Origin: a virus
IMG/VR virus record: IMGVR_UViG_3300029893_000220
Span: 1 to 24,092 of that record
DNA: 24,092 nucleotides
Direction: 5' to 3' (one strand)
A model generated the notes under the pieces. That model did not search any database and was not told where the DNA came from. It was given only the letters and a program-made list of their open reading frames with translations. Of this stretch, positions 3,375 to 24,092 are shown one piece after another. The first letter of the stretch is position 1. The number at the start of each line of letters is the position of its first letter. The position numbers and the translations under genes are program-made.

Positions 3375-4121
3375 CTATTGCCTATATTTTAGCATACCAA
3401 TATCAGGCCATTCACCACTTCTTTTTAGCTCTTCCTTCCTTAAATCATACTTACCATTTAAAACCACATGATTATCATCCCACTTTTCTTGCCCGCCAAA
3501 GTCTTTTCTATCATGTCGCAAGGTAAAACTCTCAAGTGTCTGATCTAGGTAGAACTTAACCCCTGCGTCATTCATCCGTTCACATATCTGAAGCTGATCT
3601 CCACCAAATCCCAAAAAATCTAGTTTTTCATCCATGCCACCCACTGTGTATATGTGTTTTTTGGGGATTGCTGCCAAGTTCCACTCACAATCGTTGAAAA
3701 TACACTCATAAAATGATCCATATTTACCAGTTCTCCTTGGGTCAGCCCAGACCTTATTTACCGGCTTGCCGTACTCGTCTAAATCACTATATTGGTCACC
3801 AACTCCAGATATACACCCGTTGGTGTTTTTATAGTTAGTCCAAAACTTATCTAATGTATCAGGCTTAGCGTATATCCAGTCCTGCCAAGTAACTATCAAC
3901 TCACCCCTAGAAGCTTTAAATAAAGCATTGTACGCCCTATTTAAGCCCCAGTAGCCACCCTTGAAGGTATCTTCTACCCAGATACAGTCAAAAGAGGGTT
4001 TTGATGGGCTACAAACGATCCACTCATAACCTCTAAAGGTTTGTTGCAAAAGGGATTTATCAATCAACCTTAAAGATTCATCACCCCGGATAGTTGGCGT
4101 TACAACACTTATTTTGACCAT
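3375..4121 (-). CDS. Family 2-like glycosyltransferase
   Basis: The frame is open from 4196, but the ATG at 4121 is the better start: the protein then begins MVKISVVTPTIRG, the canonical first beta strand of GT-A family 2 enzymes, and the extra 25 residues upstream are low-complexity Ser/Asn/Gly. That gives 248 residues. A Trp-rich central region (GELIVTWQDWIYAKPDTL) holds W-Q-D-W where the metal-binding D-x-D usually sits, so the acidic motif is degenerate. GGMDEKLDFLGFGGDQLQIC resembles the late acceptor-binding G-x-DE region of family 2 enzymes. It overlaps the preceding gene by 13 bases and is the last gene of the cassette before the 3324-3350 hairpin. Sugar donor and acceptor cannot be read from sequence. 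Confidence 0.7.
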   Translation of the reverse strand: MVKISVVTPTIRGDESLRLIDKSLLQQTFRGYEWIVCSPSKPSFDCIWVEDTFKGGYWGLNRAYNALFKASRGELIVTWQDWIYAKPDTLDKFWTNYKNTNGCISGVGDQYSDLDEYGKPVNKVWADPRRTGKYGSFYECIFNDCEWNLAAIPKKHIYTVGGMDEKLDFLGFGGDQLQICERMNDAGVKFYLDQTLESFTLRHDRKDFGGQEKWDDNHVVLNGKYDLRKEELKRSGEWPDIGMLKYRQ

Positions 4122-4780
4122 TCTTCTTCCCAATTTATTACTGGAGCCAGCAAGTCTTCCACCAAATGAGTTGCTAGAGAAGGAATTGGACCCCACAACC
4201 TTGAACCACTAGCTCTAATTTCTTGCCACATAGGGTAATCCCATGTTTCATGCTCGATGATTGTGTCCATGTGCTCATTAAGTTTGGAAGAATGACACCC
4301 AAAAGTAAGAGTGGTGGACCTCACCTCTCGCCAATGATGATCTCCAACAACCTTAATTTCATACTCTCCAATATGCCTTGGCTCGTTCCAATAAAGGTCT
4401 GGATGATCGTAAGGTGTTACAAAATCAAAACTCTCCATAGCAGCCATGAGTTTTTTGCCAACATCGGGCAAGAAGATGTAATCGTCCTCCAGTAATAAGA
4501 CATAGTCATCAGTCTTACTTGCTAACTCCAATTGTTTTCTGAAAGACCCCAAGTTTCCCATCTCTTCACCTCGCACGATACTTAACTTAAAAGGAATATC
4601 TTTGACTAGCCTCTCATACTCAATAGGACACGAATCTAAAACAAAAATAATCTCAGGCTTAATGTCTCTAAATCCTCTCACTACAGATGATAAAGTCTTC
4701 CCAAACATGGCTAACTTATCATCTTTATGTAGAGGAGACTTGCCGTTAACAAACGGACACACTCGCAGATAGATCTTCAT
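4109..4780 (-). CDS. Glycosyltransferase-like protein (GT-A type)
   Basis: A 223-residue soluble protein starting MKIYLRVCPFVNG. The segment DDYVLLLEDDYIFLPDVGKK (residues about 90-109) has the strand-ExD arrangement of GT-A enzymes, where the acidic pair holds the metal and nucleotide sugar. The first nucleotide-binding strand is less canonical than in its neighbours, and the C-terminal half is Trp/His-rich (DHHWREVRS, ETWDYPMWQEI). It overlaps the upstream gene by 35 bases and the downstream one by 13, which indicates translational coupling within one cassette. A transferase is likely; the family number and substrates are not determined. Confidence 0.6.
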   Translation of the reverse strand: MKIYLRVCPFVNGKSPLHKDDKLAMFGKTLSSVVRGFRDIKPEIIFVLDSCPIEYERLVKDIPFKLSIVRGEEMGNLGSFRKQLELASKTDDYVLLLEDDYIFLPDVGKKLMAAMESFDFVTPYDHPDLYWNEPRHIGEYEIKVVGDHHWREVRSTTLTFGCHSSKLNEHMDTIIEHETWDYPMWQEIRASGSRLWGPIPSLATHLVEDLLAPVINWEEEWSK

Positions 4781-5378
4781 ACGCTTTTAAAAAGGGGATT
4801 TTCCACTTCTTTTCAAAAATCTGTTTCCCCTCCTCAAATGACTTATTTCTAATGCCAGCCTTGGTGCTAGTTTGCTCTTCTAAGTGTCTAACCTTAACCG
4901 AAGTCACCTGCTCCATCTTCACTCCATCTTTGAGAGCCTGGTAAAAGCGATCTAAGTCTCCAAAATAGTTCTTGAAAACCAGATCGTCCCCCTTCCATAT
5001 TTTTTTAGGAAACATAAAGAAAGCCCCATCCCACTTCGGCTCCTGCTTGCCTTCAATCAATGGAAAAGAAAAGCCATCTCTCTTAAGACTCGATAAGCTA
5101 CCCTCAAGAAGCAATGTGTCATTATTGATAACACAAACATATTCTTTAGTAGCCACAGCTACACCGTCATTTACTGACTTGGTGAAGCCTAGGTTGGGAT
5201 TATGTCTGATATAAAAGTTAGCGGTATCTCTCAAGAATCCAGCACTCAACTTTGACCCATCATCCACGATGATTAGCTCACCATATTGATTGTATAACGA
5301 GTAAAGACAGTCTCGGGTTATTTGACCTAGCTGTTCGTCTAATAAATAGATTGGTATAACAAGGCTTATTTCTTCCAT
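4746..5378 (-). CDS. Family 2 glycosyltransferase
   Basis: A 210-residue GT-A protein. ISLVIPIYLLDEQ forms the first strand, ELIIVDDGS (about residues 34-42) is the classical nucleotide-binding motif of family 2 enzymes, NPNLGFTKSVNDGVAVA is the usual helix after it, and CVINNDTLLL (about residues 82-91) takes the D-x-D position as N-N-D. At 210 residues it is shorter than typical enzymes of 250-300, and the C-terminus (residues about 165-210) is Lys-rich. It overlaps both neighbours (13 and 35 bases). It probably transfers a sugar in the same pathway as the adjacent transferases. The acceptor is unknown: virion protein or host surface glycan are both possible. Confidence 0.75.
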   Translation of the reverse strand: MEEISLVIPIYLLDEQLGQITRDCLYSLYNQYGELIIVDDGSKLSAGFLRDTANFYIRHNPNLGFTKSVNDGVAVATKEYVCVINNDTLLLEGSLSSLKRDGFSFPLIEGKQEPKWDGAFFMFPKKIWKGDDLVFKNYFGDLDRFYQALKDGVKMEQVTSVKVRHLEEQTSTKAGIRNKSFEEGKQIFEKKWKIPFLKAYEDLSASVSVC

Positions 5379-5854
5379 ATAATCACTGCTCCATTTATAT
5401 GACCCTTAATGGGTTCTATTCGATATCCTCTATCCTTAACGAACTCATCTATGGCTTTCTTGGCTCCAAAAGGCTGTCCATAATCATCACAGACTATATA
5501 CTTCCTTGCGAGTCTATCTACGGCCTCCAAATCTCTCCTGCACCCTTCATAAGAGTGGTCTCCGTCAACATATACCCAGTCATACTTATCAGTAAGTGTG
5601 GATAAAACCTGGACACTATCCCCATATTTAATATCCCAACGATCAGGAAAATAGGCACGAAAAGCACCTTCCTTGCCTTTATTATCATCCAAATCTATAG
5701 AAAGCAATGTGCCGTTAGAGCCCATCAAGTAAGCCCACGCACTCATTCCCCAGCAAAAACCAATCTCTAATCCCGTTTTGGGCTTTAGCTTTGTGACTAA
5801 ATTAACCAACGGCTGAATGTATTGATCTGGGTTTAGTTCTTGCTCAAATTCCAT
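5366..5854 (-). CDS. SAM-dependent methyltransferase, class I
   Basis: A 162-residue Rossmann-fold enzyme. LEIGFCWGMSAWAYLM (about residues 30-45) is motif I with the G-x-x-x-G-like loop for S-adenosylmethionine. LLSIDLDD carries the acidic residue that binds the ribose. YDWVYVDGDHSYEGCRRDLE (about residues 90-109) is motif IV in the form typical of the Methyltransf_24 group, often linked to sugar or cephalosporin-hydroxylase-type methylation. YIVCDDYGQPFGAKKAIDEF follows. It lies among glycosyltransferases with overlaps of 13 and 22 bases, so O-methylation of a glycan is the natural inference. The substrate is not shown by the sequence. Confidence 0.75.
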   Translation of the reverse strand: MEFEQELNPDQYIQPLVNLVTKLKPKTGLEIGFCWGMSAWAYLMGSNGTLLSIDLDDNKGKEGAFRAYFPDRWDIKYGDSVQVLSTLTDKYDWVYVDGDHSYEGCRRDLEAVDRLARKYIVCDDYGQPFGAKKAIDEFVKDRGYRIEPIKGHINGAVIIWKK

Positions 5855-6567
5855 CCTAGGAGTTTCTTAATTTCTAATGGTAAAGGTGACTTGACAGCCT
5901 CCTCAAAAACATTCGGTACGGTTGGGTGAAAGTTTTTATCACCCTCTCTCCACTTGAGCCACACATCTTGATACCAATTTGGCACAAGCTCATGAGCATG
6001 ACCCCATGAAGATATCTTTTTGACCATCTCGGCGTCAGTCCTCACATATGAGAGATGGTGAAGTGTTGTGTCTGGGATGTAAAAGTTGTCATAGTAAACA
6101 TCTCTAACACTAGAAAATCTTTGGTGAGGGCGCATGGCTAGTACAGGAGGACCTTGGGTGGGTGTAACAATATGGTCAAGGTCTTTCCAATAAACAAGCA
6201 TTTCTGATGGTTTATAAATCTCTCTCTTAGGAGAATTACCAAGAAAAGAGAAAATCTTGTCAAGCGACTCTTTGGTGTAAAACTCATCGATGTCTACGAT
6301 CAAACACCAATCGAAACCCTTGTCCTTAAAGTAATCCAGTCCAAAGTGTCTTTGATCCTCATCCTTGCTCCAGTTACCCTCAATTACAGTAGCACCGTTA
6401 TTCTTGGCAATTTGTGCGGTATTGTCTACCTCTTCCATTGCGCTTCCTTGCCAAGGCATGAGTGAGACTAGAACAAGGTGCTCAACATCAAACCCGTCAA
6501 ACTGTCTTATACAAGCCTTGATAAACCGCTCCTCATTGTATGCACAAGTAACTACCCCTACTTTCAT
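5833..6567 (-). CDS. Glycosyltransferase, family 2 / GT92-like
   Basis: A 244-residue protein starting MKVGVVTCAYNEERFIKACI, a canonical GT-A first strand with the A-Y-N-E motif. FDWCLIVDIDEFYTKESLDK (about residues 90-109) supplies the D-x-D metal motif as D-I-D-E, the form common in Glyco_tranf_2_4/GT92-like proteins. DEDQRHFGLDYFKDKGFDW just before it matches the usual D-Q-R-x-x-G region of that group. The C-terminal half is rich in Trp, His and Tyr (TTLHHLSYVR, WYQDVWLKWREGDKNFHP). It overlaps the upstream methyltransferase in an ATGA (4 bases) and the downstream one by 22 bases. Confidence 0.75.
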   Translation of the reverse strand: MKVGVVTCAYNEERFIKACIRQFDGFDVEHLVLVSLMPWQGSAMEEVDNTAQIAKNNGATVIEGNWSKDEDQRHFGLDYFKDKGFDWCLIVDIDEFYTKESLDKIFSFLGNSPKREIYKPSEMLVYWKDLDHIVTPTQGPPVLAMRPHQRFSSVRDVYYDNFYIPDTTLHHLSYVRTDAEMVKKISSWGHAHELVPNWYQDVWLKWREGDKNFHPTVPNVFEEAVKSPLPLEIKKLLGWNLSKN

Positions 6568-7076
6568 TTAACAAATCCTCTAATAATAACCAGGCGCATT
6601 ATTTCGTCCTGAAAGTATTGGGTGTCAGGATACTTAAAATCCTCTCTAAACCACACAGATCGGTGGTTTTCAGAGGGGTGACCCCGCCATGAATATTGAA
6701 TAAAGTCAAAAGGATACTGAATCAGTATATGCTTAGTACGATACATTAGAAAATCTAACAAATCTAAACCGTCAGATTTTTTGAGGTGTTCAAGTACATC
6801 ACCCAAGATCACCAAATCCCACACCTCATCAGTATGTCTATCTATCCACTTCTCGATTGGCTCTACGTCAAGATCACTGTATTTATCTCTAAGCCCATAC
6901 TCACCAACATAGGAATCATCAACCTCAACACCTCTAAGATAGCACTCAACCCCCAGCTCCTTGAGCATATCTGCATACTTACCGGCACCACAGCCCACAT
7001 CTAGCACCCTTTGTGGATTAATAGAGGATATAAATTCCTTGATTTTATCGTCAAATCTATGGTCAGATACCGGCAT
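6564..7076 (-). CDS. SAM-dependent methyltransferase, class I
   Basis: A 170-residue enzyme. RVLDVGCGAGKYADMLKELG (about residues 23-42) is a textbook motif I (D-x-G-x-G-x-G) for S-adenosylmethionine, GVEVDD supplies the acidic ribose-binding position, and VWDLVILGDVLEHLKKSDGL (about residues 88-107) is the L-G-D-V-L-E-H motif of the Methyltransf_11/23 group. The C-terminus is Tyr/Phe-rich. It overlaps the large double glycosyltransferase by 14 bases and the next transferase by 4. Methylation of a sugar or glycosylated product in the same pathway is inferred from context; the acceptor is unknown. Confidence 0.8.
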   Translation of the reverse strand: MPVSDHRFDDKIKEFISSINPQRVLDVGCGAGKYADMLKELGVECYLRGVEVDDSYVGEYGLRDKYSDLDVEPIEKWIDRHTDEVWDLVILGDVLEHLKKSDGLDLLDFLMYRTKHILIQYPFDFIQYSWRGHPSENHRSVWFREDFKYPDTQYFQDEIMRLVIIRGFVK

Positions 7077-9393
7077 TGAAGTTTTTAACCCAAACCTTGG
7101 AAATCTCGTCCCAAGTTTCTTTTTTAGCTAATTGTTTAATCTCATCACTCAGTTTGGTCGTGTCTTTACCCAACAGCTCAACAACCTTTCTTGCCACTGC
7201 CTCCTGGGTCTCTCTGTCATAAGGATCACCCTTAACCTTCTGGCAATATGGTTTTTCCTTAAGAGCGGCATAATCAGTGGTAACCGGGATACACCCAGCC
7301 ATTGCTGCTTGCCTAACAGTTATGCAATCTATCTCCTCGAATGTTGTAGCGTAGTAAAGTATCTTTGCCTTCGATTTTGCCTTTATCAAATCTGACTGCC
7401 CAACCCGTCCCTTCTCTGTCACCCCAGGCTGACTCATCAGCTCAATCATTCTCTTCTTCCAAGCCATTCTCTCTGGATTGTCTGAGTAAAACGAGTCAAA
7501 CAGTTTCCATCCGTAGTAAATATCTAGTGTCGCTTGTGGAAACTTCTCCCTAATAATCGGCCAGCCATATTTAAGCATATACTCAAGGCCGCGGTCATAC
7601 GATGAAGCATAGATCAACTTAAATGGATCACGCTTAGATTTGCTCCATTTAAAGCTCCCCCTGTCTACACCGTTGGGCACTATTACAAACTTGTCTTGCT
7701 TTACATGAGGTAAGAAAGTCTGGTGGTACTTAGTTTTGATGAATATCTTATCTACTTTTTTGAGCCTGTCTGCAGTAAACTCCATCGGATTAGGTACATC
7801 ATGCAAGTCAAGGAAAACCTTGTTTGCCTTCCAGTCCATATCCAACATTGATGGATTTCTCCAGATGATTAAGTTATCGAATTGATCTTTCTGATTAAAT
7901 CGGTAGTAGTTTAGGTACTCGACACCGTCATACTCACCCTCATCTGCACCAGGATTTCCGTATACAGTCACCTTGTATCCAGCCTTAGTCCAAAGCTTGC
8001 TTAACTGGATTACAGCCGTTTCAGACCCCCCAATACCTTGAGATAGGTTCTTTGGTGTCCAACTCTCAAAACCAGCACCACAGAAGTACACAACGGACCC
8101 TTTAGGCCACTTCTTTGGTGGCAGATAAGTATTTCTTAACTTATCCACAATTACCGTGTTCTGTACCTCTTCTGGTAATGAAGCCAGTAAGTTAAGGATT
8201 TTATCCTCTCGCTTTTGCTCCCCAAGCACAGAAACCATATCGGATATGTTTCTCATCCACTCACCCCACCTAACAAGCTTAGCTGCTGACTCCATCTTGT
8301 CTTTATGCTCCTTCGTCGGCATGATCTCGAAAAGCTCAGAGGCCACCTTCAAGGCTCTCTTCATATCTCTCTTGTGGAAATAAACTAGAAAGAGGGTGTT
8401 TAGGGCATTGATCTTATCATCCCTAGGAGTTAGAACCGCTGCAGTTTGAGGCTGCTTAATACTTAATCCCAAATTAACGTAAAACTCAGCCTTCCTAAAA
8501 TCTTTCTTCATGGCGTAGGTACGAGCCAGGGCTATATACCACGATGGCCACTCTGGCCTTTCATGAATTGCTGACTCATAACAAGAAATGGCGTCATCGT
8601 AGTTTCCCTGCAAGTAAAAGATGCCTCCAAGGTAATGCCATGCCTGGGCTCTTTCCTCATCCCATCCAGAATGACTCAAGTAATCCTGAAAGAGTGTCGC
8701 CGCCCTCTCATAACCCTTTTGGGTGTGAGTATCAAACAAACATCGAGCAAGGTAGTACTCAGTCCTCGGGTCTGGTTCTTTTCTTAATCCTTTAGCCACT
8801 TCTTTTAGCTCTCCGGCATACTGCTTACTTAGAATCCTTATATTCCGCTCTATCCCAGATATTTTGTTCTCATTGGTAGGCCAGTGATTAACTGCAAAGT
8901 CTTTAATATATTGAGTATTTACCTCAACCTTAGGCACAAGCGTCTCGTGCAGTGCGGCTTTCCACTTGTATTTACCGTTCCTGACAATCCTCTCTCTTGG
9001 GTGAACGATAACAACCTCCTTGGTTCGTGGGTCAATCTCGTAGTTATAGTCCACAAAAACACCATCTAGATTCTGGTTGTCCATCTCCTTGACTACCTCT
9101 GGGATGATCCTGGCATTTTGCACCACATCATCACTGTCTAGCCACAAAACATACTTATACCCCTTGGTTTGTTCAAAGTTAAAGTTTCTAGCAGCGGAGA
9201 AATCATCAATCCAGTCAAAATGAGACAAAGTAATCTTCTTATCCTCTAAGTCTTTCCAATTGTCTTTTGTTTGCGTGGTGGTAATAAAAGCATGGTCTAC
9301 ATACGCCAAAATAGATTTAAGACACCTCTTGACCTCATCAACCTCATTACCCTTGATAATCATTGCCAGTGCTAGTTTCTTCATGTTGCTCAT
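7063..9393 (-). CDS. Fused GT2 - TPR - GT4-like double glycosyltransferase
   Basis: A 776-residue protein with three regions. Residues about 5-200 are a family 2 GT-A domain: LALAMIIKGNEVDEVKRCLK begins the fold, DWIDDFSAARNFNFE is the usual W-x-x-D-F-S-x-A-R-N motif, and YVLWLDSDDVV is the metal-binding D-S-D-D. Residues about 205-320 hold TPR-like helices (AWHYLGGIFYLQGNYDDAIS, ALARTYAMKKDFRKAEFYV). Residues about 430-776 resemble a GT-B enzyme: GSVVYFCGAG, GIGGSETAVIQLSKLW for the N-lobe loop, then VIVPNGVDRG, IYASSYDRGLEYML and a C-terminal E-x7-E-like region around TTFEEIDCITVRQAAMAG. It is the first gene of the cassette, after the 9401-9784 gene. Starts at 9393 or 9384 are both possible and neither has a strong Shine-Dalgarno. 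Two transferase activities in one chain suggest sequential sugar addition. Confidence 0.8.
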   Translation of the reverse strand: MSNMKKLALAMIIKGNEVDEVKRCLKSILAYVDHAFITTTQTKDNWKDLEDKKITLSHFDWIDDFSAARNFNFEQTKGYKYVLWLDSDDVVQNARIIPEVVKEMDNQNLDGVFVDYNYEIDPRTKEVVIVHPRERIVRNGKYKWKAALHETLVPKVEVNTQYIKDFAVNHWPTNENKISGIERNIRILSKQYAGELKEVAKGLRKEPDPRTEYYLARCLFDTHTQKGYERAATLFQDYLSHSGWDEERAQAWHYLGGIFYLQGNYDDAISCYESAIHERPEWPSWYIALARTYAMKKDFRKAEFYVNLGLSIKQPQTAAVLTPRDDKINALNTLFLVYFHKRDMKRALKVASELFEIMPTKEHKDKMESAAKLVRWGEWMRNISDMVSVLGEQKREDKILNLLASLPEEVQNTVIVDKLRNTYLPPKKWPKGSVVYFCGAGFESWTPKNLSQGIGGSETAVIQLSKLWTKAGYKVTVYGNPGADEGEYDGVEYLNYYRFNQKDQFDNLIIWRNPSMLDMDWKANKVFLDLHDVPNPMEFTADRLKKVDKIFIKTKYHQTFLPHVKQDKFVIVPNGVDRGSFKWSKSKRDPFKLIYASSYDRGLEYMLKYGWPIIREKFPQATLDIYYGWKLFDSFYSDNPERMAWKKRMIELMSQPGVTEKGRVGQSDLIKAKSKAKILYYATTFEEIDCITVRQAAMAGCIPVTTDYAALKEKPYCQKVKGDPYDRETQEAVARKVVELLGKDTTKLSDEIKQLAKKETWDEISKVWVKNFNAGI

Positions 9394-14487: not shown

Positions 14488-16128
14488 TTACATACCCAGA
14501 TCAGAATCTACCTCCTCCTGAAATTGGGGTAATTGATAATTAGATATCTGTACTACAGGGCTTTCAACTTGGTATAACTGCCAAGCGATAGCCAGTGCCA
14601 TACAGTTATGAACCAAGATATTGTTGGCAAAATACTCTGGAGTTTCTGCAACTTGGAGGTTATAAACTCTTTGCTTTCCGGCGATAACGCGACCCACAAA
14701 GTTGTGAACAAAACTTAGCACCCAAAGTACGGGTGTAAATAAACTTTTTACCACATTCCGCACAAATGGCTTCTTTCCTTTCTCCATGAATACTAAGACG
14801 AGCTGCTCGTCGAGCTTGTTCTTTCCACTTTTCTGGGTTGGCGGCTCTCCATTTTGCAAGCGTCTCTTTAATTCTTTTAGCGTTTTTGAGTCCGTTTCTA
14901 CGAAGAAGAGCTTGGTATTCGTCTGGGTTTTCTTCTTTCCACTTTTTGAGGGCTTGAATAGCTCTACTAGCTTGTCGTTTGCCATTTTCGCTATACACCC
15001 GGCTTGCTTCTTTGGGGTTGTTTTTCCGCCACTCTCGTAACTGTCTAACCAGTCGCTTGGCTTGCCGATGACCGTTAGACACAATGAGTTTATGCCTATC
15101 TGGTTCAAGAAGGTGTTTGGTGATGTGCTTACCCTTTTCCTCAAGTGCAAGATTGTCTGGTGAGTTATTAAGAGGATTACCATCTTTATGGTGAACAACA
15201 TATCCCTTAGGGATTGAGCCAAAATTGTCAATCCAAATTTGCCTGTGGAGTGCAAATGGAGGTTTTTTCCACTTATCGTGTCGCCAATAATAGACCCTAA
15301 GCTGTCTTCTCTTTGAATTTGGGTAGCGGTGATACTTTTTTCCTCGATACTCGATTGTTTCTCGTTCCACATGTATATTATATCACTGGCCTTAACTGTA
15401 GCAAGAGAGACAGTGCCTTTTTTCGTTATAATTGGATGGTCGGGAGTTCCCGTAAGTCCTAGGTTCGTAACTACCTTGGCATACCTAGAGTTGGTGGCAA
15501 TTACTGGTCTATAACCATTTCGGGTCATTACCAAATCTCCAACTCTAATGTTTTCTATTGGCACTTGGCCATTATTTGTTAGTATTTTTGTTCCTGCCAC
15601 GAAACATAAATCATCATGGGCTCCTTCCTCGGCTTGGGGTTTTCCAGATCTGCTGATAATGAAGGTGAACAACTCTTTTACTGTTGGTTTATGGTAGAGC
15701 TTGATTAGCTGTTTATCTATAGCCTCCTTTAAATCTTGAAGCATTTTAGGCCTAGTGGCCGTGTTAGTATCCCACCCAATCTTACTGCTCTCTGGGTTAT
15801 TTATAGCTCCGTAGCTTGGCATGGTAAAAATCTTGTATTTCCCGTTTCTGTTCAGCGTTGCAAGACGCTCTAACTCAAACACCCCGCCGTTTTGTCTTTC
15901 ATAAGCCACCACCGGCTGAATTCCTGTCTCATCAAATATTCTTTCAAGCTCAATGTGAATGGTTGGGGTAACTGAGGTAATGCTTTGCTTAACGTAGATT
16001 ACACCAGGAACATCAAGATTGGTTTTGGAAAGGAATTGTGCTGCAGTAAAGTCATTCGCCCCCGCTGATGGGTCAACTCCAACTGTGATAAATTCTCCCC
16101 GGTTGTATTTTCTATATTGTTGCAACAT
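14488..16128 (-). CDS. terL: Large terminase nuclease subunit with intein
   Basis: A 546-residue precursor. Residues 1-174 and 509-546 form an RNase H-like terminase nuclease domain: GVDPSAGAND (first acidic Asp19), VVAYERQNGG (Glu77) and AHDDL (Asp172/173) are the three metal-binding motifs. Residues 175-508 are an intein. Splicing would join GAHDDL to CMALAIAWQLY and restore the helix that carries the HDD motif. The ATG at 16128 overlaps the ATPase gene by 17 bases in the +1 frame; an in-frame TAG at 16143-16141 prevents upstream extension, so the two halves are separate ORFs unless ribosomes shift within 16140-16115. In most phages both domains are one polypeptide. This nuclease cuts concatemeric DNA at packaging start and end. 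Confidence 0.85.
   Translation of the reverse strand: MLQQYRKYNRGEFITVGVDPSAGANDFTAAQFLSKTNLDVPGVIYVKQSITSVTPTIHIELERIFDETGIQPVVAYERQNGGVFELERLATLNRNGKYKIFTMPSYGAINNPESSKIGWDTNTATRPKMLQDLKEAIDKQLIKLYHKPTVKELFTFIISRSGKPQAEEGAHDDLCFVAGTKILTNNGQVPIENIRVGDLVMTRNGYRPVIATNSRYAKVVTNLGLTGTPDHPIITKKGTVSLATVKASDIIYMWNEKQSSIEEKSITATQIQREDSLGSIIGDTISGKNLHLHSTGKFGLTILAQSLRDMLFTIKMVILLITHQTILHLRKRVSTSPNTFLNQIGINSLCLTVIGKPSDWLDSYESGGKTTPKKQAGCIAKMANDKLVELFKPSKSGKKKTQTNTKLFFVETDSKTLKELKRRLQNGEPPTQKSGKNKLDEQLVLVFMEKGKKPFVRNVVKSLFTPVLWVLSFVHNFVGRVIAGKQRVYNLQVAETPEYFANNILVHNCMALAIAWQLYQVESPVVQISNYQLPQFQEEVDSDLGM
14660..15370 (-). CDS. HNH homing endonuclease nested out of frame in an intein
   Basis: A 236-residue protein with a GTG start at 15370, in the frame offset by two bases from the intein that contains it. 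FGSIPKGYVVHHKDGNPLNN (residues 50-69) followed by SPDNLALEEKGKHITKH is a canonical HNH_3-type nuclease core: His60/His61, Asn69, Asn73 and His82/His86. Three W-x(4-5)-NP helical repeats follow (residues about 110-190: WRKNNPKEA, WKEENPDEY, WRAANPEKW), probably DNA-recognition modules. The C-terminus has C-x2-C-x14-C-x3-C (ICAEC...FCSQLC), a zinc finger. It would cut intein-less terminase genes and so drive intein spread. A promoter-like TTGCTA-N16-TATAAT lies directly upstream. No Shine-Dalgarno is seen. Confidence 0.85.
   Translation of the reverse strand: MERETIEYRGKKYHRYPNSKRRQLRVYYWRHDKWKKPPFALHRQIWIDNFGSIPKGYVVHHKDGNPLNNSPDNLALEEKGKHITKHLLEPDRHKLIVSNGHRQAKRLVRQLREWRKNNPKEASRVYSENGKRQASRAIQALKKWKEENPDEYQALLRRNGLKNAKRIKETLAKWRAANPEKWKEQARRAARLSIHGERKEAICAECGKKFIYTRTLGAKFCSQLCGSRYRRKAKSL
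15377..15403 (-). promoter_or_regulatory. Promoter-like sequence inside the intein, before the HNH ORF
   Basis: On the minus strand TGATATAAT (15385-15377) is a perfect extended -10, and TTGCTA lies 16 bases upstream (about 15403-15398) as a partial -35. Transcription would begin near the GTG start of the HNH gene, giving an almost leaderless message. Confidence 0.45.
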
Positions 16129-18055
16129 CCTTAACTTGCTCTAAATATGCCTTGAGAGCTTCTTTGTCAAAATAGTTATCACCCGACGCTATAAACGCCT
16201 CTTCTGGTGTCTCTGGATATTCTTGTGGGTAGAGTCTCCCGAGCTCCTTTCTCTTTTGCTCTAAGAAATCTTGTGAATAAAACAACGATGCTGAAAAAAA
16301 CAAAGGGTTAAATCCCGTTAATCCAAGCTCGGACTCATCCCAAAACTCCTTCAACTCATTAAAACCATTTGCTGTGGTCTCTATTACCACTCTTCCATCC
16401 GGCCTAACAGCTTGTAGAGCTGAGGCTAAAAGCTTCCTAAAGTGTTTGTAAAAAGCCGCCTCCGAGTTTGAGATCACCCCACAAGGAGTAAGAAATGCGT
16501 GGGACTTGTCCTTGACCTCTATCTCATAGGTCTGTTGGGGGGGGGCGTCTTCTATTGACTTAACCTTAATAAACAAGCCCCCATTACATGAAGACATATT
16601 CCTAGTAGTTAAATAGCGATACTTCATCCCCTTAAAACTTTTTGCCCCATTTTTCTTTTTCTGAGAAAAACCATGCACCCTTAATCTATAGATCGGTTGG
16701 GTTTTGTTCTCGTATCTTTTCCTGTTTTCCACATAGTCAAGAGCGGGAATCCTGTGATTTAACAGGCAATAGATTTGCCTCATCTGCCTTCCTATGCTTT
16801 CCCTGATAGTGGTTATAAACACCATCTCTTGCCTCCCATTTTTTACATAATCCAACTTTGAGCCGTCTCCATCCTTCCAACCATCAAATAATCCCAAAAG
16901 AAACTTCTTTGGATACTGATACAAAAACTTATCAGGAATATATTTGTTTTCAGCCCTACCAACCAGATCATTAACAAACATTGCTATTTCCCTAGAAAAG
17001 TACGTGATTATTTTTCTGGTCCCACTGTTATCTGATCTGATATCCACCCTAGGGCTTATTGGAAACAAGTCAATAAAGTTCTCATAAAAGTATTCATCAG
17101 GATGACAAGCAAAAGAAATCTTATTTAAGTCTTTTGTGATGTTTCCCTCGGCCAGGTAATAGCCTAAAAAATAACCCAGCTTATAATTCGTCTTCAAAAC
17201 TAAACCAGAGCTTCTTACATTACCTATTTTTCCATTTGGAGCTCTCTTTCTTACGAGATGTTTTGCGTTTTTCTGGTTCCTTACTACCAGATGTTTTACA
17301 TAAGCCCCCGTCTTTGGATATGCCCACATAACATAATCATCGGTAGTTAAATCCTTGGCCTTTTTCCATACTGGATCCGATAGGCGACTGTTATGCCCAG
17401 CACCAGCAACCCGAATCTTATGATCTGGAGAAACATCGATAGTTTCATTTGATAACCACAGTCTGATTCTTTTTATTGGTTTGATGCCAGTGTTCCATTT
17501 ATTAGTAACCTCAGTGAGGCCACCATCTTCAGCGATCACCCTGTCTCCTATTTCTATATCCTTTATCTTCTTTGTGATCCCGTTTTTACTAATTATTTTA
17601 GTGTCTCCGCCTACACACATGTGCAAATTTTTGATAGTCTTTGACCTTCCAAACTCCGTATTTTCAGCTGTACCTATCTGATATTTACTGTTTATTACTT
17701 CATTAACGAGCTCGTATTTAGAGTTGTACTTAAGTGGAATCTTCATTCCTGTTTTTTGCTCATACGACTGAAGGTAAAACTTAACCTTATCAAGCAATCC
17801 TATGGCGTTATCTGCGACGTCTGCGACAACTACTGAGTGAGAGTTAGGGTCAAGAATAAAATCTCCAGCAAAAATACCACCAATAAATGATGAAAAACCC
17901 TCTTGTCTAGCCTTAAGTAAGATATCTCTACCAGTTGCTTTGTTAGCAAATAACCGTTGCGGACCGTTTGGCACAAACTGAACTATCTGACCTTGTTTAT
18001 CTATAATCTCAAGACGTTGCTCGATAAATTTCTCGTAAGGCTTATAGACACTCAT
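16112..18055 (-). CDS. terL: Large terminase ATPase subunit with intein
   Basis: A 647-residue precursor. Residues 1-146 and 531-647 form the terminase ATPase. LLKARQEGFSS (about residues 46-56) is the variant Walker A of this family. Splicing joins IKNLHM to SEAAFYKHF, restoring the L-H-x-S-E Walker B with its catalytic Glu. VVIETTANGFNELKEFW is the following motif III region, and PETPEEAFIASGDNYFD is the usual end of the ATPase domain. Residues 147-530 are an intein with a LAGLIDADG endonuclease. The start overlaps the small terminase stop in an ATGA (18052-18055). The 3' end overlaps the nuclease ORF by 17 bases. This motor pumps DNA into the prohead through the portal. Confidence 0.9.
   Translation of the reverse strand: MSVYKPYEKFIEQRLEIIDKQGQIVQFVPNGPQRLFANKATGRDILLKARQEGFSSFIGGIFAGDFILDPNSHSVVVADVADNAIGLLDKVKFYLQSYEQKTGMKIPLKYNSKYELVNEVINSKYQIGTAENTEFGRSKTIKNLHMCVGGDTKIISKNGITKKIKDIEIGDRVIAEDGGLTEVTNKWNTGIKPIKRIRLWLSNETIDVSPDHKIRVAGAGHNSRLSDPVWKKAKDLTTDDYVMWAYPKTGAYVKHLVVRNQKNAKHLVRKRAPNGKIGNVRSSGLVLKTNYKLGYFLGYYLAEGNITKDLNKISFACHPDEYFYENFIDLFPISPRVDIRSDNSGTRKIITYFSREIAMFVNDLVGRAENKYIPDKFLYQYPKKFLLGLFDGWKDGDGSKLDYVKNGRQEMVFITTIRESIGRQMRQIYCLLNHRIPALDYVENRKRYENKTQPIYRLRVHGFSQKKKNGAKSFKGMKYRYLTTRNMSSCNGGLFIKVKSIEDAPPQQTYEIEVKDKSHAFLTPCGVISNSEAAFYKHFRKLLASALQAVRPDGRVVIETTANGFNELKEFWDESELGLTGFNPLFFSASLFYSQDFLEQKRKELGRLYPQEYPETPEEAFIASGDNYFDKEALKAYLEQVKDVATI
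16466..17617 (-). mobile_element. Intein with LAGLIDADG endonuclease in the terminase ATPase
   Basis: Residues 147-530 of the ATPase precursor (384 residues). Block A begins CVGGDTKIISKNG. Block B is DVSPDHKIRVAG. Two LAGLIDADG helices lie at residues about 293-304 (LGYFLGYYLAEG) and 385-398 (FLLGLFDGWKDGDG), each ending in an acidic residue as required for a single-chain homing endonuclease. The C-terminal block is SHAFLTPCGVISN followed by Ser531. The penultimate residue is Ser, not the usual His. The insertion splits the Walker B motif just before its S-E pair. Confidence 0.92.
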
Positions 18056-23518: not shown

Positions 23519-24092
23519 ATGAAACTAACTAAAAAACAGGCGTTGGAGAAAATCGAGGAGCTTAAAAAATATATAGCCGAGAAGGACAAGGAAGAGCCTA
23601 AGGGTTATGTGATTAAGAATAGATACAACAACTCTGAAATCTTTGTCTCAACCAAGAACAATGTCAGAGACGCTGTTATTGAGGCGGTAGAACAGGCAGC
23701 CAACCTTAAGGAAGCCAACCTTGAGGGAGCCAACCTTAGGGGAGCCGACCTTGAGGGAGCCGACCTTGGGGGAGCCAACCTTAGGGGAGCCAACCTTAGG
23801 GAAGCCGACCTTAGGGGAGCCAACCTTGTGGGAGCCAACCTTAAGGAAGCCGACCTTGTGGAAGCCGACCTTAGGGAAGCCAACCTTGTGGGAGCCAACC
23901 TTGTGGGAGCCAACCTTAAGGAAGCCGACCTTGTGGAAGCCGACCTTAAGGAAGCCGACCTTGTGGGAGCCAACCTTAGGGGAGCCAACCTTAGGGGAGC
24001 CGAACTTTTTAACGCCAAATTTTACGGTAAGGGTGGAGCCTCTAAACTGAAAAGAAATCAGGTAGAGACTTTCTTAAAGGCACTGGGGTTCA
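23519..24092 (+). CDS. Pentapeptide-repeat protein, partial at right edge
   Basis: From ATG 23519 a frame of 191 codons is still open at the window end. Residues 1-60 are a charged helical head ([20 protein letters not shown]). Then come about 21 tandem pentapeptides of the form A-(N/D)-L-x-x (residues about 61-165), which fold as a right-handed quadrilateral beta helix. A different C-terminal segment follows ([20 protein letters not shown]). Such proteins can mimic DNA (Qnr/MfpA type, gyrase binding), but the acidic face needed is only suggested by the many D-L units. At DNA level the 15-base units are nearly identical. ORFs on the other strand and in other frames here are products of the repeat. 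Confidence 0.85.
23700..24010 (+). repeat. Tandem 15-bp repeat array in the pentapeptide gene
   Basis: About 21 units of the pattern (A/G)ACCTTnnGGnAGCC encode pentapeptides. Silent positions are almost invariant (CTT, GCC). A 53-base block at 23821-23873 is repeated exactly at 23896-23948, five units (75 bases) later, showing recent internal duplication. Confidence 0.9.

Follow-up and report, generated by a model that had tools for sequence, protein, structure and literature searches.

The terminase large-subunit gene (terL) of the virus represented by IMG/VR record IMGVR_UViG_3300029893_000220 (positions 1 to 24,092; this whole stretch of 24,092 nucleotides is called the window here) is interrupted by an intein that is very likely a mobile element made of two overprinted genes, namely a splicing domain with a passive linker and a free HNH endonuclease encoded out of frame in the same DNA. 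No fewer than 127 distinct loci of phages or prophages share the arrangement, which is thus a widespread class and not a one-off. The integrity of both frames, selection on the HNH protein, the purging of stops from the intein frame only, the predicted folds, the promoter or Shine-Dalgarno (SD) signals and a filled/empty pair of alleles are shown, and splicing, HNH expression, cleavage and homing are inferred. The features of the window are the following:

14488..16128, minus strand: nuclease ORF of the terminase large subunit (exteins), 546 aa, interrupted by the intein after the motif ...GAHDDL and before C+1 MALAI
14605..15606, minus strand: intein, from C1 to HN334 followed by Cys+1, 334 codons
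15337..15606, minus strand: N-terminal splicing half, intein residues 1-90 with blocks A and B, HintN profile, pLDDT 83-98
14683..15336, minus strand: intein-frame linker, open, without a recognised fold, unconstrained in sequence except for the absence of stops
14605..14682, minus strand: C-terminal splicing half, residues 309-334 (VYNLQV...ILVHN), pLDDT 95-98
14660..15370, minus strand: hidden HNH endonuclease gene, GTG start at 15370 and TAA stop at 14660, 236 codons
15143..15253, minus strand: HNH catalytic core, LHRQIW...VVHHKDGNPLNN
14669..14764, minus strand: treble-clef or zinc-finger-like CxxC...CxxxC segment at the C-terminus of the HNH protein, seen in the sequence
15377..15382, minus strand: -10 element TATAAT with a preceding TGA (extended -10), 6 nt before the HNH GTG
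15399..15404, minus strand: -35 element TTGCTA, with a 16-bp spacer to the -10

The HNH gene begins on the third base of an intein codon, within the ATG TGG codons of the intein sequence ...IYMW, and ends with a TAA (14662-14660) contained in the TAT AAC codons of the VYN motif (VYNLQV), so that this second gene is an exact fit between the splicing halves. The N-extein of the interrupted ORF matches a PHROG terminase (E 1.8e-8).

Other features of the window were also observed. The terminase large subunit is encoded by two overlapping ORFs on the minus strand (ATPase 16112-18055, nuclease 14488-16128), a split also seen in a similar form in locus L002, and the ATPase ORF appears to contain a second intein with a weak LAGLIDADG match. 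By eye, glycosyltransferase- and methyltransferase-like ORFs are clustered between structural genes at 3375-9393 (minus strand), and a pentapeptide-repeat-like ORF runs off the end of the window at 23519-24091 (plus strand), where both strands show long open frames over the repeats.

The splicing blocks CFVAGTKIL, TPDHPIIT and VYNLQVAETPEYFANNILVHN/C were all found in the nuclease ORF, and the sequence meets the criteria of a class 1 (Hint) intein (C1, block B TPDH, HN334 + Cys), with C1, T54, H57 and N334 invariant among 38 aligned members. The intein matches Pfam Hint_2 (E 6.4e-10), by profile comparison it also resembles solved inteins, among them gp41-1 (E 1.9e-12), and a Foldseek search of its AlphaFold model recovered the gp41-1 and RecA mini-inteins (E 5e-6 to 1e-3). 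The criterion for a Hint fold is met by pLDDT values of 83-98 in the N half and 95-98 in the C half, exceeding 90 over most of the two halves, with values mostly of 35-73 in the linker, and neither Pfam nor AlphaFold recognised an endonuclease or any other domain in the window linker when read in the intein's own frame. The HNH protein, on the other frame, scores against PF13392 HNH_3 (E 4e-14) and PHROG 15471 (E 5.7e-21); its core motif is present, with H42, H60, H61 and N69 invariant in the aligned set. Its AlphaFold model has a mean pLDDT of 93.4. A Foldseek search of this model against solved homing endonucleases gave weak matches only, perhaps because helical repeats dominate the model. 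According to the models, then, both splicing halves and the HNH protein are predicted to fold confidently and the linker is not. A reading made from sequence alone had claimed an intein with complete splicing blocks at 14605-15606, no endonuclease in its own frame and a 236-codon HNH gene with an intact core out of frame, and all three claims held (by coordinates, blocks, Hint_2 and AlphaFold; by the unrecognised linker; and by the ORF 15370..14660, PF13392 and the invariant residues, respectively). It had also claimed a C-terminal zinc finger on the HNH protein, for which the cysteine pattern is seen but the match to Pfam DUF2116 ('probable treble clef') is weak (E 0.064).

Viral contigs and bacterial and archaeal genomes were scanned with the HNH protein and the intein as queries, which led to 196 hidden-HNH intein loci (some contigs having been fetched more than once before redundancy reduction), of which 127 are non-redundant at 90% amino-acid identity and 90 at 50%. 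In all of them one ORF spans HintN and HintC, and the phase of HNH is the same. This count was limited to the phase of the window's HNH, but a separate classification had no phase restriction: a hidden HNH was found in the window's phase in 135 of 137 inteins and in another phase in none, the remaining two being without HNH. Among the annotated plasmids searched only one clear further case was found. The hidden form is present in isolated phages, including Rhodobacteraceae phage MD07 and the cultured phage TJE1, and in the Halobacterium plasmid pGSL19_54.9. The whole intein ORF used as a single protein query recovered two relatives only, probably because the linker diverges fast; the HNH query worked. 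The usual insertion site is the nuclease motif of TerL (HDD|C, DNH|C-IDA-RY and the like), occupied in most members across highly divergent terminases; a few members, judged by eye, are inserted elsewhere in terL. One viral contig carries a hidden-HNH intein in a DegT/DnrJ-type aminotransferase gene instead of terL (L032:4156-6261). In the isolates inspected the annotation shows a terminase or a Hint protein only, which indicates that gene callers miss the endonuclease.

The intein frame of the window has no stop over the 236 codons that overlap HNH. When the synonymous codons of HNH were shuffled, the chance of an open intein frame was 0.03 for this copy alone, a value as high as this because the phase is naturally stop-poor for HNH proteins. 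The evidence that the frame is kept open comes from the relatives: 91 non-redundant copies show 0 intein-frame stops against 275 expected by synonymous shuffling, and this is not explained by chance. The unused third frame of the same copies contains 1918 stops (1973 expected), and in free-standing and other relatives the frame equivalent to that of the intein contains 162 (167 expected). Keeping the intein frame open has a visible cost in the composition of the HNH protein. Methionine is depleted in hidden copies (0.76% vs 1.37%, p=0.008), Met followed by a codon beginning with A is found in 0 of 191 cases against 14 of 27, NTA before a purine never occurs, and hidden copies contain no Met or NTA/NTG codon in a context that gives a stop in the intein frame.

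Selection on the amino acid sequence acts on the other frame. In pairs above 50% identity the differences at the three HNH codon positions are 0.36/0.30/0.55, and in distinct close pairs the changes that are silent in HNH and alter the linker outnumber the reverse by about 97 to 34 (several rows of the substitution table repeat the same pair, and the ratio given is that for distinct pairs). Linker amino-acid identity is barely above that obtained by codon shuffling. A conserved function of the linker was considered and rejected, since a similar excess over shuffling is found in the untranslated, dead third frame. Constraint in the HNH frame together with linker identity near the shuffled level indicates that HNH is maintained and that the linker need only stay open. 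In two deletion derivatives (the mini-intein L220, and L033) the intein is intact and HNH is wholly or almost wholly lost. With more than a hundred natural replicates, the class lends itself to measuring the evolution of one frame beneath another.

These data also bear on the remaining claims of the sequence-only reading. Its statement that no intein-frame stop occurs over 236 codons held, and its estimate of the chance of this, near 1 in 100,000, failed: the value obtained by shuffling shows it to be overstated for one copy. Its proposal of two overprinted genes, a passive linker and a free endonuclease, is supported by the comparative data, and the database search for inteins with out-of-frame HNH genes that it suggested extended the arrangement from a single case to the large class of non-redundant loci described above; the comparison of synonymous and non-synonymous change in both frames, which it also suggested, is the one just given. 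It had named a sequencing frameshift as a refuting result, which is excluded by the shared phase of the 127 loci, and also relatives with a decayed HNH and an intact intein, which do exist (L220 and L033) but are rare and resemble ordinary endonuclease loss.

About half of the loci, including the window, carry a -35/-10 pair in which precisely 6 nt separate the -10 hexamer from the HNH start downstream, a position that would place the predicted transcription start on the start codon and give a leaderless mRNA. In the window this promoter-like element is TTGCTA - 16 bp - TATAAT with the extended TGA (15404..15377), and the HNH start is without an SD. Its score is 6.7 against a mean of 3.1 in synonymous shuffles that keep the intein protein fixed; with p=0.09 this is not significant, and the case for a promoter rests on the family. 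For 68 no-SD loci below 50% identity the combined Fisher value is 2.7e-22 at offset 6, which is also the offset with the highest mean, and loci with an SD of 4 or more show no promoter signal at this offset (p 0.72). Fisher values are overstated because independence is assumed and the loci share ancestry. An SD is present in 0 of 38 strong-promoter loci against 19 of 49 others (p=3e-6), and the TTG of the -35 is reached via two different codon registers (spacer 16 or 17). Many members carry an internal SD (for example GGAGG in L004 and AGGAGG in L141), the SD excess itself being modest across loci, and in about 35 of the 124 scored loci a strong promoter and an SD of 4 or more are both missing. 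Non-HNH inteins of the same Hint type would serve as promoter controls; only two were found in the scan (the first intein of L029, and L231, both LAGLIDADG-like in appearance), which is too few.

Evidence bearing on mobility comes from the terL of Acinetobacter phage Highwayman, for which 112 matching phage records were found, the whole query being matched only in Highwayman; its intein DNA has no match in any other phage record. The terL of Acba_21 is a precise empty site, with exteins 99.5% identical to those of Highwayman, and the differences between the two cluster at -163 to -1 and +1 to +12 around the insertion, the +1 residue being Leu in the empty allele and Cys in the filled one. This pattern is what co-conversion during homing would give, homing itself being inferred without cleavage data, and the two phages are a tractable isolate pair for its study. 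It is likely that the HNH endonuclease spreads the intein, although cleavage and homing are both inferred. Free-standing HNH homologues adjoin terL in phages PAE1, SN1, CL2, EauM-23, BP10 and Poludnitsa. In L023 and L019 an intact HNH lies directly downstream of an intein-less terL with the intein-derived upstream DNA kept, and the former intein frame is now filled with stops ('escaped' copies). In Vibrio phages 1.238.A, 1.245.O and 1.238.B (L165, L166, L167) terL is split: the N half, HNH and the C half are separate ORFs and the intein frame contains 13 stops, which looks like a split intein. The relative L022, in which the HNH frame continues into the C-block and a different frame encodes the N half, may be a frameshifted derivative or an assembly error.

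In the mechanism that we propose, the first frame would be translated within the terminase to give a Hint splicing domain, the halves of which, joined by a long meaningless linker, would associate on folding and excise the whole intein, linker included. Reading this DNA one base earlier gives an entire HNH homing endonuclease gene that has a start and a stop of its own and is most likely transcribed, in the window and about half of its relatives, from a small promoter within the coding sequence of the N half. HNH would be translated from a leaderless mRNA in these promoter-bearing members, and many other members would use the internal SD. The conserved nuclease motif of intein-less terL would then be where the endonuclease cuts, and the intein would be copied in during repair. 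A bolder reading, towards which we lean without much margin, is that overprinted HNH inteins are a large overlooked class of mobile elements in the terminase genes of phages (and prophages and archaea), in which the endonuclease is an autonomous module with an embedded leaderless promoter or internal ribosome-binding site, and in which this module can be embedded in an intein, lie in a split intein or stand free at the same target gene, moving between these positions.

Among the rival explanations, it remains possible that HNH synthesis starts internally on the terL transcript (through a weak SD, coupling or leaderless-like entry) and that TATAAT is a by-product of the intein amino acids. This would agree with the clear SD of some members such as L004 and L141, with the non-significant promoter score of the window itself and with the leaderless initiation on the host transcript proposed by the authors of the ShiLan study (PMC11855218). 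Against it, the window has no SD, the no-SD loci peak at the exact leaderless offset above intein-preserving synonymous shuffles, the -35 TTG is reached via two codon registers and an SD is absent from every strong-promoter locus. Programmed -1 frameshifting yielding an IntN-HNH fusion instead of a free HNH is very unlikely: all loci do have HNH in the -1 frame with respect to the intein, but most of the early-sampled loci have an HNH-frame stop a few codons upstream of the start, and no more than 11 of 127 loci contain a -1 slippery heptamer. Very unlikely too is the idea that HNH is a dead remnant and that the intein alone matters, for which the two deletion derivatives could be cited, but which is opposed by purifying selection on HNH, by its invariant catalytic residues in the aligned set, by the long intact HNH ORFs of the scored loci and by copies where HNH is intact and the intein frame decayed. 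Finally, sequencing or assembly frameshifts separating an in-frame HNH intein, a type that does exist (the CL131 dCTP deaminase, L047), are all but excluded by the same phase in 127 independently assembled non-redundant loci and in complete isolate genomes, by the separate start and stop of HNH and by the specific purging of stops from the intein frame.

Regarding known systems, the closest precedent to the overprinted intein is not an intein: it is the ShiLan domain, an out-of-frame HNH in a methylase for which no splicing element was found (Arsenault et al., 2025, PMC11855218). Both have an out-of-frame HNH in an open host frame, a GTG at the third position of a host codon, a TAA at the end, a patchy distribution and no SD (that the phase is the same was judged from the stated start position of ShiLan). 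They differ in that the ShiLan linker stays in the host protein, as no splicing domain was found there, whereas the complete Hint intein of the window would remove it; additionally, hidden-HNH inteins sit almost exclusively in terL, and an embedded promoter is identifiable among them. The embedded promoter or SD is a testable answer to how a hidden endonuclease could be expressed, a question left open for ShiLan. Nothing closer was found for out-of-frame endonucleases in inteins in the literature searched, which excluded a preprint on the 'Non-Canonical Architecture' of actinobacteriophage inteins (Gosselin et al., bioRxiv 10.1101/2025.01.02.630785) that PMC11855218 cites for overlapping reading frames; because this preprint may overlap with the present findings, priority is uncertain.

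Canonical HNH inteins such as that in the dCTP deaminase of Aphanizomenon phage CL131 (PMC6293099) also have a Hint domain with an HNH between blocks B and F, but fused in frame (as in L047) and not as a separate out-of-frame gene. Mini-inteins (gp41-1, the Mtu RecA mini-intein) share the Hint fold and blocks with the window intein, and differ from it by a short linker and the lack of an endonuclease. The terminase inteins of mycobacteriophages lie in the ATPase domain (PMC5050341), whereas the site in the window is in the nuclease domain. Free-standing HNH genes by terL (Pseudomonas phage PAE1, Lactobacillus phage CL2) are homologous and have the same target gene, but lie outside an intein, and in most of those tested the stops in the +1 frame are at about chance. 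Fractured genes with split inteins and a free endonuclease gene have reportedly been described (Dassa et al., 2009); they resemble the present class in having an endonuclease gene between intein halves, the form shown by the terL of Vibrio phages 1.238.A and 1.245.O, and differ in that their halves are separate proteins that need trans splicing, whereas the window class is read through in one frame. Out-of-frame HNH insertions and inteins are each known already, separately. In the general textbook view an intein is one polypeptide into which the endonuclease is fused; here each function has its own gene, both written on one stretch of DNA, and an intein that seemingly has only an unfolded linker may consequently be armed.
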